Shown piece by piece: positions 28,926 to 35,241 of a stretch of DNA of 64,000 nt (position 1 is its first letter; each line of letters begins with the position of its first letter). Both the position numbers and the translations under genes were made by a program. This DNA comes from Candidatus Abyssobacteria bacterium SURF_17 (GTDB lineage: Bacteria; Abyssobacteria; SURF-5). The stretch is taken from positions 1-64,000 of the forward strand of contig QZKI01000065.1 of assembly GCA_003598055.1 (NCBI GenBank). The letters are read 5' to 3'. The notes under the pieces were generated by a model. The model saw only the letters and a program-made list of their open reading frames with translations. It did no database searches and was not told where the DNA came from.

Positions 28926-30008
28926 CTACGCCTCGATACCCTCTGCCCTGAGATAGAAATTCGCAGGGTCCGCGGCGGGACCGGATGGTGGCTGCTTTTT
29001 CAATTCCAGGAGATGTCGCGTCGGTTCCGCGGGTGTTATGGACACGTCTTCTCCTTTGCAGATAAAGGGAGCGCTCTGAGTAAATCCATAGACTCTCTTC
29101 TTGCCGGCATCAATCGGAATCTGGGCGCGAGGCGCGAATATTTCGGCGGGTTCGACCAAGACCACCGGCGAAACCGGATAAAGCTCCATCAGGGAGCAAA
29201 GAAAGGCACGGTCGAAATACTCATGATATTCCTGTCTGTACTCGACCTGCGCCGCGCCTCTAAGCGATATCCTCCTCGGCGATGCCAGTTGGAATGGAAC
29301 TTTCAGGCACAGCGCATCTTCCTTATGTTCTCCGGCCAGAGGAATCACCTTTGACGCGCTCCGAAGCGAGCGGAACATCTCCATTTCAGCCTCGATTTCC
29401 GGAAGAGAGTCGGAGGCGAGCAAGGCCTCTGTCAGCCGTTGCGTATGAACGGCCAGCTTCCGTGCTGAACTGAGACTGGCAAGACGCAAGAGCGCCACGG
29501 CCGCGACTCGCCTGCGCACTTTCTCAAGCTTTCCGTCTGCCCCTCCGGCAACTTTGTTAAGACGCGTTGTGGAGAGCAGATTACGGAAGATGCGGACATA
29601 GTCCGCGCGAACGAGCGGCCACTCGCCGAACCTCATGTAATAATCAAATACATGCGGCCAGAGGTTCTCCCGCCATCGTTCTCCAAGCCGAATCTCAAAG
29701 TTGAAGCGGTTCCGCAGCACTGCTTGCAGCTTCTCGTACGTGAGGAGGTAGACAGGACCGTCGTATTCTATTCGTGCAACACAGTCTTCCAGGGGATTGA
29801 GCCTGAAGTCTCCTGCGCCGATTGCCGAGAGATTCTTTGGCGCACCAACGAGGCCGCCTGACGCGGAAAACTCAAGGCGGCCTGGCATGCTCGATGAGAC
29901 ACCACACCCCTTTGGAGTCTTGATAAACGGCGCAGATCCCACTACAACAAACTGGTGGACTGAAACACTAGCCAGGCTTACGACCCTTTTTCTGAACAGC
30001 CGCCTCAT
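28926..30008 (-). CDS. protein of unknown function
   Basis: About 360 residues, not recognised. It opens MRRLFRKRVVSLAS, contains a beta-rich N-terminal part (VARIEYDGPVYLLTYEKL), a helical middle with many Arg/Leu (about 165-230) and a Pro-rich end. No membrane segment or catalytic motif is evident. The start I favour has AAGGG upstream; an earlier in-frame ATG would overlap the upstream gene by 23 bases. It follows another unknown gene by 13 bases, so the two form an operon. Confidence 0.6.
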   Translation of the reverse strand: MRRLFRKRVVSLASVSVHQFVVVGSAPFIKTPKGCGVSSSMPGRLEFSASGGLVGAPKNLSAIGAGDFRLNPLEDCVARIEYDGPVYLLTYEKLQAVLRNRFNFEIRLGERWRENLWPHVFDYYMRFGEWPLVRADYVRIFRNLLSTTRLNKVAGGADGKLEKVRRRVAAVALLRLASLSSARKLAVHTQRLTEALLASDSLPEIEAEMEMFRSLRSASKVIPLAGEHKEDALCLKVPFQLASPRRISLRGAAQVEYRQEYHEYFDRAFLCSLMELYPVSPVVLVEPAEIFAPRAQIPIDAGKKRVYGFTQSAPFICKGEDVSITPAEPTRHLLELKKQPPSGPAADPANFYLRAEGIEA

Positions 30009-30021
30009 CAACAGCCCTTGT

Positions 30022-30705
30022 TCAAGGTGAGGTATAGCCGACAATACGTCCGGCCGCTAATTTGACCTTTACCTCTTTCAAGTTCTTGAACAGTTTTCCG
30101 TTAATGTAGGTGCGGGAGGGATCGCAGACAACGGGCGCCATGACCGCCAATGTAAGTGGCGCCGCTAATGCAGACGCAAACACCAGCCCCGCGCCAACTA
30201 CCATAGCAAGAGCGATCACACTTGCAACCGTATCGAGTGATGTGCTCGCCTCCTCTGTGCCCTCCCCGATATCTGGGGAGGATTCATGGAGCGTTTCAAG
30301 AGCGTGTTTCAAGAAACCTTTATACTCGAGGGGCGCGGCCACGGAGGCGATTTTCTTCTTGGCCTCCAACTCCGCGCGTTCGGGCATCGTTTCATGGGCG
30401 GTTATCCTGAAGCGCACCGGCTGATTCGCCCCCGCTGGGTGAAGGTGAATCATGCGGGCTGCCTCGCCGTCGCTGTACACGTCAAGCGCGGCGACGTGCT
30501 CCATGCTGTCGATGAACATCGGAGTTTCGTGAAACACCTCGAGAGTACGCACACCGGGAATCGACCGTCCGCCGATGTCCACCTCAAATGGCTGGCGGGA
30601 AGAAACGGACACTCGGTGCAGACCGGTGATCCTCTGGGGGACTGTTTTGATACGCTGGGCGATAAGTGGACGTGCTTGAACGGTACGTGTAGCAACACGC
30701 TGCAT
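30022..30705 (-). CDS. protein of unknown function with C-terminal hydrophobic segment
   Basis: About 227 residues, not recognised. A basic N-terminus (MQRVATRTVQARP) leads to a beta-rich part (SVSSRQPFEVDIGGRSIPG), then a charged stretch and a long hydrophobic region (about 162-200, VIALAMVVGAGLVFASALAA) that could be one or two membrane spans, then a short tail. The ATG has AGGGGAGGGG upstream. First gene of a pair with the following unknown protein. Confidence 0.6.
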   Translation of the reverse strand: MQRVATRTVQARPLIAQRIKTVPQRITGLHRVSVSSRQPFEVDIGGRSIPGVRTLEVFHETPMFIDSMEHVAALDVYSDGEAARMIHLHPAGANQPVRFRITAHETMPERAELEAKKKIASVAAPLEYKGFLKHALETLHESSPDIGEGTEEASTSLDTVASVIALAMVVGAGLVFASALAAPLTLAVMAPVVCDPSRTYINGKLFKNLKEVKVKLAAGRIVGYTSP

Positions 30706-30936
30706 ACGCATCCCCTCCCCTCTGTGGAAGCATGCACGCTCCATGCTTGCCTGTTAACAATTATACTATCAAATGGAGCAAGCGTCAATAGCGGCAGGGG
30801 GTATATTATGAATGAACGCCGGCAGGATTTTCACGCGGAAGAAAGAGAACCAGCACGGGTTTCAAGGGACGGAATTCTCACCGTGAATTCCAAGGTGTAA
30901 AATGATTCCCGTCTTGTCCGTCCGTGGGAGAGGATT

Positions 30937-31122
30937 TTAACGAGACGGTTTCTTGGTCTTTCCTTCCCCCAGCTTTCCGGAATTCGTCCGAAACTCTTTC
31001 CCTCGCGGCTGGTTGGCGAGCAACGTCCGCATTTCTTCGCTCGTGACCCCTTCATCCTTCACATACTTCATTGGGATCACGGAGCCCAATCTTAGCCGCG
31101 TTCGGGTGAGGGGGCGCTTCAT
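30937..31122 (-). CDS. 61-residue basic protein coupled to ExeA-like ATPase
   Basis: MKRPLTRTRLRLGSVIP opens a small, strongly basic protein ending GEGKTKKPSR. Its ATG overlaps the stop of the ExeA-like gene (ATGA), a good sign of translational coupling and of a real gene. No domain recognised. It may be an accessory or nucleic-acid-binding partner of the two ATPases upstream. Confidence 0.6.
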   Translation of the reverse strand: MKRPLTRTRLRLGSVIPMKYVKDEGVTSEEMRTLLANQPRGKEFRTNSGKLGEGKTKKPSR

Positions 31123-31970
31123 GTCAGACAGTGTTCCTGGAGACACCGTTCGAGGACTGTCCGTGTGATTCTTGGTTCAGACCGCATGTAGGCCTCGAGG
31201 AGCAGGTTGTCGCCGAGCTTGTTCACTTCCCGGCAGATGCCTCCCGAATACGAGTGTATGGGATCGTACACGTCCTCAGCGAATATGTTTTCCGTCGAGC
31301 CCGCCACCATCAGCCGGAACTTGATGTATTGTTCGGTCTCGGCTCGTGCCATGGGCATAAGATAGGAGGACATGGCGATTCTGCTTCGAAGAGAGTTGTA
31401 TCGCTTGTGACGCAATCTGCGCGGAAACGTTTCTTCCGCCAGCATGATTATCGTGCAGAGCTTTTCCTGGGGAGTCTCCAGATTCGTGAGCGCGCGTATC
31501 ATGTGCAGTTGTTCCGAGGGCAGGAAATGGGCTTCATCAACGATGACGACCACTCGTTGTCCCCGACTATACGTATCCATAAGATAGGAGTGAATCATGT
31601 CGAGGTAACCCTGCGTATTCTCTCTTCCCGAAGGCCGGGGGATTTCCAGTTCATCGGCAATGCATGCCAGGAGCCCCATCTTGCTCATCCCCGGGGTTGC
31701 CAGAATGACCACAGGGATGAACTCGCCCTCGCCGAACGCGCTCAGAAGCATTTGCGCAAGGAGCGTCTTGCCCGTGCCGCTCCGGCCCCATACAAGGCCG
31801 AGCGCCTTGTGATGCTTCGCGCACATCATCATCTTCACAAACGCGGCTTCGTGCGTCTGCGTACGATAGAAGAATTCCGGATTCACGTTGTCGGCAAACG
31901 GCATGCGCTGCAAACCAAAATGTTCGCAGTAATCAAGCGTTGCGCCCAACCATTTTGTTGCCACTTCCAT
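31119..31970 (-). CDS. ExeA-like AAA ATPase
   Basis: About 283 residues. FGLQRMPFADNVNPEFFY is the typical N-terminal segment of ExeA/GspA-type ATPases; Walker A is VWGRSGTGKTLLAQ, Walker B VVVIVDEAHFLP. In type II secretion and exopolysaccharide/exosortase loci such ATPases help assemble envelope machines; some relatives serve transposition. I chose the ATG behind AGGAG, which overlaps the end of the MinD-like gene by 38 bases. No transposase is near. The following basic protein gene overlaps it by four bases. Confidence 0.82.
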   Translation of the reverse strand: MEVATKWLGATLDYCEHFGLQRMPFADNVNPEFFYRTQTHEAAFVKMMMCAKHHKALGLVWGRSGTGKTLLAQMLLSAFGEGEFIPVVILATPGMSKMGLLACIADELEIPRPSGRENTQGYLDMIHSYLMDTYSRGQRVVVIVDEAHFLPSEQLHMIRALTNLETPQEKLCTIIMLAEETFPRRLRHKRYNSLRSRIAMSSYLMPMARAETEQYIKFRLMVAGSTENIFAEDVYDPIHSYSGGICREVNKLGDNLLLEAYMRSEPRITRTVLERCLQEHCLT

Positions 31971-33114
31971 AACACTCTCCTGTTTCCCTGTTAACGCCAA
32001 TCCCCTTGCCATCCGCCACCGCCGCAAGCGGCAAGCAGCGGGTGATAAACTTCTCCAAACCCGCTCCGCCCAACCGCGAGCGGGCCGACGCCATCTCCTG
32101 TTCGAGCAGCATGCGTGCGAGTTTCCGTATCGATAGCGAGGCCCGTGAGTCGGGATGCCGAATCGAGAGCGCGACTCGCTCATTTACGGCATGTCGCACT
32201 CGCGAGTCTTCCCAGATGTTTCCCATATCGAGCACGCGCCTCCCAAGGAAGCGATGCGTGCACTGGGAAATTCGCACGAGCGCCTCACGTCCTTCGCGCG
32301 CGCTCCTCACGCGGTTCGCCACAACCCCGATTCTGCAGCACGGGCTGCGTCTCATGCTGAGCTTTATGAGAGCATATGCGTCGGTGATTGCCGTAGTCTC
32401 AGGTGTCATGACCACCAGAACAAAATCCGCCGCCACGACAAAATCCAGGACCGAATCCGACACACCCGCAGCCACATCAACGATAATTACGTCATATCGC
32501 GCATCGAGTTTTCTCAATTCCGACAGGAAAATTCGGCGCTTGTGAGCAGGCAAGTTCGCGAGTTCAAGAATTCCGGACGCGCCAGGCACGATGTCGGGCC
32601 CGTCAGTCACTTTAGCGATGATGTCCTCGAGTCTCCATGCTCCTGACATGACATCCCGTATCGTCTTTCCTTCTTTCAAACCTGCAAGCACATGGAGATT
32701 GGCCACGCCAAAGTCTGCATCGACAACAATCACCCGAAGCCCTTGCCTGACTAACTCGACCCCGAGGTTCAAGGCGACCGTGCTCTTGCCAACACCCCCC
32801 TTCCCGCTCGCCACAGCAACGAGCCGGGCCGGGGAAGAAGTATCCTCGCAGGATGATGCGAGCCCATTACTCCCATGGAGCGACGGATGGGTCACTATGG
32901 CTGCGAGATGGCGGATGAGCATGTTCGGTGCGACTCCCTGCTCAAACAATCTATTTGCAGCAGCGAGTATCTTCAGGTCGTTCGGCAAATATGTCCGAGG
33001 AATGAGCGTAAAGGGGGAGAGAAACTCCTGACAATAGAGCTCCAGAAATCTGAGGCGTGATGGCTCTATGCCAATCAGTCTTGCGGCTTTTTCTGCGTTC
33101 GGATGGTTTTCCAT
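31933..33114 (-). CDS. MinD/ParA-like ATPase with MerR-like N-terminal domain
   Basis: A 393-residue protein. Residues 6-70 match a MerR-type helix-turn-helix (KAARLIGIEPSRLRFLE ... NRLFEQG). The P-loop ATPase has the deviant Walker A SGKGGVGKSTVALNLG (about 103-118) with both lysines, VVDADFGVANLH and DVIIVDVAAGVSDS, close to FleN/YlxH/MinD. Its ATG lacks a ribosome site, while a good AGGAGT precedes an out-of-frame ATG at 33145, so a shift near the start is possible. The promoter spacer contains a palindrome it may bind. First gene of a unit with the ExeA-like ATPase. Confidence 0.82.
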   Translation of the reverse strand: MENHPNAEKAARLIGIEPSRLRFLELYCQEFLSPFTLIPRTYLPNDLKILAAANRLFEQGVAPNMLIRHLAAIVTHPSLHGSNGLASSCEDTSSPARLVAVASGKGGVGKSTVALNLGVELVRQGLRVIVVDADFGVANLHVLAGLKEGKTIRDVMSGAWRLEDIIAKVTDGPDIVPGASGILELANLPAHKRRIFLSELRKLDARYDVIIVDVAAGVSDSVLDFVVAADFVLVVMTPETTAITDAYALIKLSMRRSPCCRIGVVANRVRSAREGREALVRISQCTHRFLGRRVLDMGNIWEDSRVRHAVNERVALSIRHPDSRASLSIRKLARMLLEQEMASARSRLGGAGLEKFITRCLPLAAVADGKGIGVNRETGECYGSGNKMVGRNA

Positions 33115-33171
33115 CTGGGCGTTCGGTACTGGAAACGTCAGCCATACTCCTAGATATTGTATTCTTGTCAG

Positions 33172-33200
33172 ATTTTAATACTTCATCTAGTATTTGTCAA
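33172..33200 (-). promoter_or_regulatory. promoter with palindrome between -35 and -10
   Basis: Read leftward: TTGACA, 17 bases, TAAAAT. The spacer and adjoining base carry AATACT-N6-AGTATT (33177-33194), a perfect 6-bp inverted repeat. MerR-type regulators classically bind between these boxes, though usually with 19-20 bp spacers. Confidence 0.7.
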
Positions 33201-33600
33201 CACCTTTTTGGTTTCTTCATGAGCCGTCCCGACAGAAAGCAGAGAAATGGCTAACGCGAGGGCGACACCACATGCGCCTGCGTGCCTCATCATCCACGTC
33301 AGACGTGCGCAGATCCTGCTGCAAAGTATGGTAGAATTGAGTATGAGAATCTGCCTCGCAAGCGAGAGCTTCCGACGAACCGCTCTTCACCGTATATTCA
33401 CGCGCAGGCACACGAACTTCACTTGTGGATACTTCCTGTGTGAATTTGAGGTGAGGTGGATGGCAAATCTGCATTAAAAACATCTGACTAAGGTCTCGCC
33501 GGGCGGCGCAGTTTTCTCGGGAAGGAAAACGCAGTTGCGCGAGCCGCTGAACCGAAGCATAAGGAACGTCGTAGAAACATTTGTGTTGAAGGTGTCTGAA
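33201..33600. other. stretch without a supported gene
   Basis: A 76-codon rightward frame from 33247 has an unlikely composition and no ribosome site. The region separates the leftward MinD-like promoter from the rightward glycosyltransferase gene. I see no clear repeat or RNA. Confidence 0.5.
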
Positions 33601-35241
33601 ATGTTGAGGAATCTGACGTGCGATTCTCGCCAATTCCCGCGGCCTTCTGTCTTCGAATGGTTCTGCCTGCCATTGGGCCTGTTCCTGATCTTTTATTATG
33701 CATGGATTATGGACGACGCATATGTCTACTTCCGGTACATTGACAATATGGAATTGCTTGGAATCGGTCTTGTCTATAATAGGGGAGAATACGTTGAGGG
33801 ATTTAGCAGTCCCGCTTGGGCGTTCATTCTTGCGGTCTTACGGTCTGTTGGTTTGGGATACTGGGTCATCATTCGCGGCGTCGCTGTAGCGGCTTTTGTG
33901 ACATTCTGGGCGGCGCTGGTCATCATAAACAGAAAGTTGTCGGGGACCGAGGCAGGCACATATATTGTCAATTTCCCCTTGATCAATCTGTCGCTGACAT
34001 ACGGCGTGCTCTGCTACTTCACCTCCGGACTCGAAACTCCGCTCGTGCAGGTGTGCGGGGTCCTCTACGCATGCTTCTTGCTTTTTCCGGGTGTACGGCT
34101 TCTGCAATTCGTTGTAGGAATCTCGCCCTTTATCCGCCATGAACTGGCGATTCCTTGCCTCATGGCGCTTGCGTGGTTTGTGGTCAGCCGCCGGAGGATT
34201 CCGTGGACGCTCGTGATTACTGGAATGGTCTTCGGCATTCTCCTCTTCGTCTTCCGTATCTACTACTACGCGGACTTGCTTCCGAATACGTTCTATTTGA
34301 AAAACGAAACCGCAGTTGCCAGAGGACTCCTGTATTTAAAAGACACTGTCTTGCCATATTCTGTGCATTACATTCTACCTTTCTTAGCGCTCTGTCTGGC
34401 CGTGCTCAAAATAACGGGGAGGAGAGAGACGGGCTACCACATGGCAGAGCGCGCTATGATGGTGCTCATTGGCTTAAGCTTCATTGTTTACGTTGTCAAG
34501 ATTGGAGGAGATCCGCGGCATTACCGCTTTCTCGCATTCCCGTATTGTATTATCATGGCTTCGACGGGCGGAATCGTGGAAGCGCTCATGTTACGCTTGG
34601 GCTTACGGTCGTCGAGGATGGCCGTTCTCGCCCTGAGCCTCATACTCGCTCTGTTCACCGTGACTCGTTATCCACGGCAACTCGACAAGCATCCATTGCT
34701 TCCAGACGTTCACCACCGACCGGTCGACGAGATAAATGATGCGGCGCTTCATCGCAGCTTCAGAGCGTTTTCGCCAAGTCCGTGGACGTTGGGGTCTGAG
34801 ATAGAATTGGGCGGAGCGGTCGAGGAGTTTCTGGAGCGTCATCCACCAAATCAGTATGTCGATGTCATTTGGTGTCCGAACTGCTACTTCGCATACACTG
34901 CGTTTCCGTGTCAGGTTATCAACGGCCTTGGGCTGACTGACCCATTCCTTGCAAGGACAGAGATGAGATCTGAACGTGCAGCGCACAAGTTTGGGCTGAT
35001 GCCGCTCGCCGAGGACATGGTCAGAATCCGCAAGAAATACGGATTTAGGAAGGGAGCTTTTCGAACGGCAACAGAAAACGGGGATGCCCCGGCATGGGTG
35101 GAAGAAAACCTGACTACCATAGAGAGAATCGAACAGAAAGTGTATAATGAACATGCGTTCTTTGAGAACTTACGGATTGCATTTATGAGAACAGGAAGGA
35201 TCAGGCTCGCGTATACCTCACTGGATGAACGTGAGAAATGA
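33601..35241 (+). CDS. GT-C fold membrane glycosyltransferase
   Basis: About 546 residues with roughly ten or more membrane spans and a C-terminal soluble part. The N-terminal loop WIMDDAYVYFRYIDN ... YVEGFSSPAWAF is the acidic DD-containing motif shared with AftB-like and related lipid-linked sugar transferases. It would move a sugar from a polyprenyl carrier outside the membrane. I chose the ATG with AAGGTG six bases upstream. A hairpin (ATGAGCC/GGCTCAT) overlaps its stop. Confidence 0.78.
   Translation: MLRNLTCDSRQFPRPSVFEWFCLPLGLFLIFYYAWIMDDAYVYFRYIDNMELLGIGLVYNRGEYVEGFSSPAWAFILAVLRSVGLGYWVIIRGVAVAAFVTFWAALVIINRKLSGTEAGTYIVNFPLINLSLTYGVLCYFTSGLETPLVQVCGVLYACFLLFPGVRLLQFVVGISPFIRHELAIPCLMALAWFVVSRRRIPWTLVITGMVFGILLFVFRIYYYADLLPNTFYLKNETAVARGLLYLKDTVLPYSVHYILPFLALCLAVLKITGRRETGYHMAERAMMVLIGLSFIVYVVKIGGDPRHYRFLAFPYCIIMASTGGIVEALMLRLGLRSSRMAVLALSLILALFTVTRYPRQLDKHPLLPDVHHRPVDEINDAALHRSFRAFSPSPWTLGSEIELGGAVEEFLERHPPNQYVDVIWCPNCYFAYTAFPCQVINGLGLTDPFLARTEMRSERAAHKFGLMPLAEDMVRIRKKYGFRKGAFRTATENGDAPAWVEENLTTIERIEQKVYNEHAFFENLRIAFMRTGRIRLAYTSLDEREK

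Follow-up and report, generated by a model that had tools for sequence, protein, structure and literature searches.

Organization of the locus

Three overlapping genes are found on the minus strand of the window (the whole stretch of 64,000 nucleotides that was analysed), between positions 33114 and 30937, and all three reading frames are present (Table 1). They code for a MinD-type ATPase with an N-terminal MerR-type domain (gene 1), an AAA+ ATPase of the ExeA type (gene 2), and a small basic protein (gene 3). The overlaps amount to 38 nt between genes 1 and 2 and to 4 nt (ATGA) between genes 2 and 3.

The start codon of gene 1 is uncertain as its Shine-Dalgarno sequence is weak. This start is overlapped, in another frame, by an ORF of 64 aa (32951-33145; AGGAG-T-ATG at 33145) which has a better Shine-Dalgarno sequence than gene 1. 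Gene 2 was assigned to the ATG at 31970, which is preceded by AGGAGAG; the 354-aa ORF starting at 32183 was rejected as a spurious upstream extension. In the ORF list, gene 3 has a GTG start at 31146 (69 aa). Its best start is the ATG at 31122, which shares ATGA with the stop codon of gene 2.

The genes on either side were not counted as members of the unit. The two downstream genes (28926-30744; 240 aa and 372 aa) have a promoter of their own (TTGACG-17-TATAAT at 30788). In G001, a genome from the same family, they are not found in the interval from uL13 to the unit, and in G002 they are located elsewhere (L159). In the genome of the window (G000), where they separate uL13 from the unit, both are unannotated and without a Pfam family, and the 240-aa product has hydrophobic segments at its C-terminus. 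The divergent gene upstream (33535-35241) is not present in that region of G001. It codes for a polytopic membrane protein of 568 aa which has the look of a glycosyltransferase and no Pfam match.

Table 1. Features of the three-gene unit, with coordinates referring to the window.
Feature	Position	Strand	Basis
Promoter block of the unit, TTGACA-17-TAAAAT	33152..33200	(-)	Conserved 49 bp compared to G001
Gene 1, MerR-MinD fusion ATPase, 393 aa	31933..33114	(-)	Pfam/HMM matches, structure model, G001 orthologue
MerR-type winged helix-turn-helix, residues about 7-68 of gene 1	32911..33096	(-)	MerR_1 in orthologues; model helices
MinD/FlhG-type deviant Walker A ATPase domain, residues 97-345 of gene 1	32080..32826	(-)	Pfam, HMM, fold
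Short C-terminal helix of gene 1, residues 352-367	32014..32061	(-)	Low-confidence model helix; conserved tail
Shine-Dalgarno AGGAGAG of gene 2, within gene 1	31975..31981	(-)	Sequence
Gene 2, ExeA-type (AAA_22) AAA+ ATPase, 283 aa	31119..31970	(-)	Pfam, model, G001 orthologue
Gene 3, small basic protein, 61 aa, N-terminal RTRLRLG, ATGA overlap with gene 2	30937..31122	(-)	Motif family

The MerR-MinD fusion protein

The ATPase domain of gene 1 is matched by Pfam AAA_31/CbiA and by MinD HMMs with 132 and 101 bits. Residues K105, K110, D132, D134, and D213 are invariant in 27/27 proteins. In the window copy itself, the match to MerR_1 is weak (E=0.054; 14.1 bits, which is under the cut-off of 21.6). 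The MerR assignment is nevertheless right by homology because MerR_1 matches all 27 orthologous N-termini (best E-value 1.4e-14). Four helices are found in the MerR region of the AlphaFold model (mean pLDDT 75). In a fold search with gene 1, the highest-ranking PDB entries were those of FleN, among them its complex with the AAA+ region of FleQ, and then those of FlhG and MinD.

A tail, FxDLMGALKRxM, is kept in the relatives of gene 1 in the region of the C-terminal helix. The amphipathicity of this helix is just modestly above that of shuffled sequences, and residues 352-367 may possibly serve as a membrane-targeting amphipathic helix.

In a tree from which the MerR part was omitted, a supported branch (96/86) still separates the MinD domains of the fusion proteins from the others, in agreement with the fusion having arisen once. 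When named genomes were scanned with the MinD protein, the only relatives were of the MinD/FlhG type, none of them with the fusion. Carriers of the fusion such as G000 also hold a separate paralogue of the FlhG type. No description of a MerR-MinD fusion, or of its pairing with gene 2, was found in the searchable literature.

The AAA+ partner

Gene 2 matches Pfam AAA_22 (4e-19), and its best NCBIfam match is TIGR03015 (XrtA/PEP-CTERM ATPase), with 155 bits compared to a cut-off of 324.5. This family is matched by all 28 gene 2 proteins, in each case with less than half of the cut-off score. The Walker A and B motifs together with N163, R197, and R247 are invariant in 28/28. The model (pLDDT 92) consists of one AAA+ fold, and a fold search identified Orc1/Cdc6, DNA-bound MuB filaments, and TnsC as its nearest relatives. 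The GAFTGA loop is missing from all 28 proteins, which shows that gene 2 does not code for a sigma-54 activator. Within its 283 aa, gene 2 has no hydrophobic segment comparable to the membrane helices of the f13 small proteins described below, and a peptidoglycan-binding part was not found. The domain assignments of the preliminary description (a MinD-type ATPase with its own MerR-like domain, overlapping an ExeA-like ATPase and a small basic protein) thus proved correct for all three frames.

Distribution and conservation

When 386 genomes were searched for gene 2, seven further ones stood out with 207-240 bits, while all others scored at most 160 bits. Six of these seven have a MerR-MinD gene directly upstream. 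When a profile of the fusion was run over 372 genomes, those with the fusion (418-595 bits) coincided exactly with the eight that carry the pair; the next best match (310 bits) is devoid of MerR. Surveys of three phyla revealed carriers among 22/40, 4/8, and 1/2 genomes. Of the 29 neighbourhoods that were read, that of the window included, 28 have the MerR-MinD gene directly upstream of gene 2 in the same orientation (one being truncated by the contig end). The exception is G136, described below. The pair of ATPases is found in four phyla with the same order of genes.

In G001, these three genes likewise have uL13-uS9 on one side and a lipoprotein/CYTH pair on the other, and identity with the window is about 75% for the AAA+ protein and 55-57% for the MinD protein. 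G002, which also belongs to the family of the window genome, is without the three genes. When all ORFs of the loci were clustered, no other gene proved to be common across phyla. Neither flhF/fliA nor transposase genes occur as conserved neighbours, consistent with the initial view that the unit differs from standard flagellar, pilus, and secretion loci. Phage relatives were not found, viral contigs yielding one distant partial match.

The small basic protein and its N-terminal motif

The charged residues of gene 3 add up to a net charge of +10. A family search gave no match, and no DNA-binding domain was seen. Its N-terminus conforms to the motif [KR][TI]x[LIF][RK], often with glycine as the next residue. 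Downstream of gene 2, a short ORF with this motif is present in 16/27 loci from all four phyla, compared to 0.4% at random anchors in the same DNA; the corresponding binomial probability of 1e-31 is overstated because the loci are related. With a motif matrix built from the other phyla, gene 3 of the window ranks first among the 687 ORF starts of the window, and dN/dS values of gene 3 in close pairs are 0.21-0.32. In 11/27 loci, gene 3 is missing or unrecognised. These include the whole f13 family, in which five loci (L053, L085, L087, L108, and L109) have a single-helix membrane protein of 40-48 aa between genes 1 and 2.

RTRLRLG of gene 3 resembles, by eye, the activating peptide of PomX (AKPRLRLGALT). 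Homology to this peptide across the family of small proteins was rejected as not significant (1324/20000 shuffles with the family matrix).

G136 belongs to a fifth phylum, outside of the four that have the pair. Here (L083:7502-9183, G136:C46), a gene 2 orthologue with 42-44% identity occupies the slot which is normally that of ParA. Its stop codon overlaps the start of the next gene, which codes for a full ParB (ParB_N, HTH_ParB). The N-terminus of this ParB (MDKYSKTLLREG) begins with the gene 3 motif, at a score that was reached by 0/20000 shuffles. The locus is an island with a tyrosine integrase close by. There is no MerR-MinD gene beside the AAA+ gene, and the 15 kb that were read gave no match to ParA/MinD. 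The AAA+ protein being the only common partner, this arrangement suggests that the motif belongs with it. Peptides of ParB, MinE, and PomX are known to act on ParA/MinD ATPases via positively charged N-termini (PMC10241942, PMC7993993), so that docking of the motif on the gene 1 product is possible as well. The docking partner is thus ambiguous, with G136 speaking for the AAA+ protein and the analogy to PomX and ParB for MinD.

Taken together, the gene linkage, the domains, the catalytic residues, and the conservation of gene 3 securely establish the module as real and conserved beyond chance. Its mechanism and its cargo are what we infer below.

Promoter and regulation

One strong promoter precedes gene 1, with 11/12 consensus bases. 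The 49-bp block around it is nearly identical in G000 and G001, whereas the flanks differ. In G000, the spacer between -35 and -10 carries the inverted repeat AATACT-N6-AGTATT (33177-33194); a second repeat of the block is GTATT-N13-AATAC. The former repeat is incomplete in G001, and a common operator was not seen in the loci of other phyla. The spacer has 17 bp, compared to 19-20 bp in MerR operators. The core of the block is present as a single copy in each of G000 and G001, with no second one when as many as 3 mismatches were allowed. Such a pattern is consistent with a MerR domain that regulates its own operon, which we consider probable, and argues against a wide regulon. A MerR regulon elsewhere in the genome was considered and rejected on the same grounds.

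Comparison with known systems

By structure, gene 1 is nearest to FlhG/FleN, with which it shares the MinD-type fold with a deviant Walker A motif. It differs in having an N-terminal MerR domain instead of DQAxxLR, a motif found in 0/27 MerR-MinD proteins compared to 13/24 other homologues. FlhA is absent from 16/29 carriers of the module, while seven genomes with FlhA are without the module, and flhF is not a conserved neighbour in the loci read. Control of flagellar number was rejected on this distribution of FlhA together with the missing DQAxxLR. In the FleN/FleQ system, an AAA+ partner is acted on by a MinD dimer, as may be the case in the module. In Pseudomonas aeruginosa, FleN dimers inhibit the AAA+ ATPase of FleQ (PMC10723142), which is a direct precedent for a MinD ATPase that controls an AAA+ partner. 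Compared to FleQ, the partner in the module is a short AAA+ protein of the ExeA type, devoid of GAFTGA.

The pair formed by the XrtA-associated TIGR03015 ATPase and a tyrosine autokinase is similar in that a protein of the same AAA_22 superfamily is paired by its gene with a P-loop protein of the MinD fold. In contrast, the module has a MinD-like protein rather than a kinase, is far below the family cut-off, and lacks polysaccharide genes; Wzz, export, or exosortase genes are not conserved as neighbours. Gene 2 resembles MuB/TnsC and ExeA/GspA in its fold and AAA_22 domain. However, a conserved transposase neighbour is missing at the module loci, and the similarity to the DNA-bound MuB/TnsC filament is one of fold. 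GspA/ExeA of type II secretion differ from gene 2 by their membrane anchor and peptidoglycan-binding domain, and T2SS genes are not found with the module.

PomXYZ, ParAB, MinDE, and McdAB resemble the module by combining a MinD-type ATPase with a protein that has a short basic N-terminus, but have no counterpart of its AAA+ partner. Like ParA of type Ia ParABS, gene 1 has an N-terminal HTH, which is of the MerR type and not of the ParA type; a ParB next to the AAA+ gene is restricted to G136, where MerR-MinD is lacking.

Possible function of the module

ATPases of the ParA/MinD type position chromosomes, organelles, flagella, and division sites. Our best reading, which is tentative (probability about 0.4), is that the unit is a conserved, self-contained switch of the ParA/MinD type that is complemented by an AAA+ partner and by a small adaptor. 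The gene 1 product, as a MinD-fold ATPase, would be expected to form an ATP-dependent dimer. Its MerR domain would bind DNA, most simply at its own promoter, which would keep the operon at a constant level. The gene 2 product, as the regular partner of gene 1, might be switched by the MinD dimer, as FleQ is by FleN, or might act as a carrier of the cargo. The basic N-terminal peptide of gene 3 may dock on one or the other ATPase, in the manner of ParB, MinE, or PomX, and its tail would then contact the cargo. Contact of gene 1 with the membrane, and an output in positioning or regulation, are further elements that we infer for this switch. A gene for the cargo was not found: besides gene 3, no conserved neighbour is present across the loci read.

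The unit had initially been suspected to control the positioning or assembly of a surface structure. A positioning-type role is plausible. A surface or envelope structure is not supported: no envelope gene is conserved as a neighbour across phyla, gene 2 has no membrane anchor and is closest in fold to the DNA-binding proteins Orc/Cdc6, MuB, and TnsC, and nothing ties the module to such a structure. Close to this suspicion is the view that the module is related to the XrtA-type pair of a MinD-fold tyrosine autokinase and a TIGR03015 ATPase and controls export or assembly of an envelope polymer. Since the TIGR03015 family acts in polysaccharide loci, a link to the envelope is possible. All 28 gene 2 proteins match this family, TIGR03015 and AAA relatives adjoin tyrosine autokinases and Wzz in plasmid loci, and a PMT_2-like glycosyltransferase gene follows gene 2 in five f13-family loci. 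We consider this view quite unlikely given the low TIGR03015 scores, a gene 1 that is MinD/FlhG-like and no BY-kinase, and the lack of Wzz, export, exosortase, or glycosyltransferase neighbours across phyla; the divergent membrane-protein gene of the window has no counterpart at the same place in G001.

A regulator resembling FleQ-FleN, in which MerR targets distant promoters and the MinD dimer remodels the AAA+ protein so that a regulon (e.g. for motility or biofilm) is controlled, is unlikely, if a little less so. Among solved structures, FleN and its complex with the AAA+ region of FleQ come closest to gene 1, MerR is a transcription-factor domain, and FleN does work on an AAA+ partner. The promoter block without a second copy in G000 and G001, the complete lack of GAFTGA, and the many carriers devoid of FlhA argue against it. 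As improbable as the envelope role is DNA partition, or a domesticated mobile element, with gene 2 as a DNA-bound protein of the MuB/TnsC/Orc type, gene 3 as ParB-like, and gene 1 as ParA-like with an autoregulatory HTH. The fold of gene 2 would agree with this, as would the succession of AAA+ gene and motif-bearing ParB in the integrase island of G136, and ParA of type Ia does have an N-terminal autoregulatory HTH. However, ParB, transposase, and integrase genes are not common neighbours in the other 28 loci, the unit shows chromosomal synteny with uL13-uS9 in G000 and G001, and gene 3 is without a DNA-binding domain.

In a more far-reaching form, which we regard as speculative and unlikely, the module would be a new two-ATPase machine for spatial organization or partition. 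An Orc/MuB-like AAA+ protein, in addition to MinD, would read a ParB-like adaptor peptide ([KR][TI]x[LIF][RK]), with either a small protein or ParB taking the part of the adaptor, and MinD would have turned into a DNA-binding, self-regulating switch. Several little-studied phyla would carry this module for cell organization.

Whatever its output, the module combines a MinD ATPase that has its own DNA-binding domain with a constant AAA+ partner and is kept in four little-studied phyla. Without a fixed neighbour that reveals the cargo, it represents a defined and testable orphan system. The proposed docking motif that is common to the small protein and ParB provides a handle on how adaptors and ATPases are matched. 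As a minor observation, several of the small proteins also have an acidic-hydrophobic motif at their C-terminus (e.g. DQILFDVADEP, EERLLVPPEE). In the phylum of G014, the gene 2 orthologues have an N-terminal tail, missing in the window and in G001, with a recurring acidic-hydrophobic motif (VVDLVD, IVELVD, VIEMVD) that is a possible interaction peptide.
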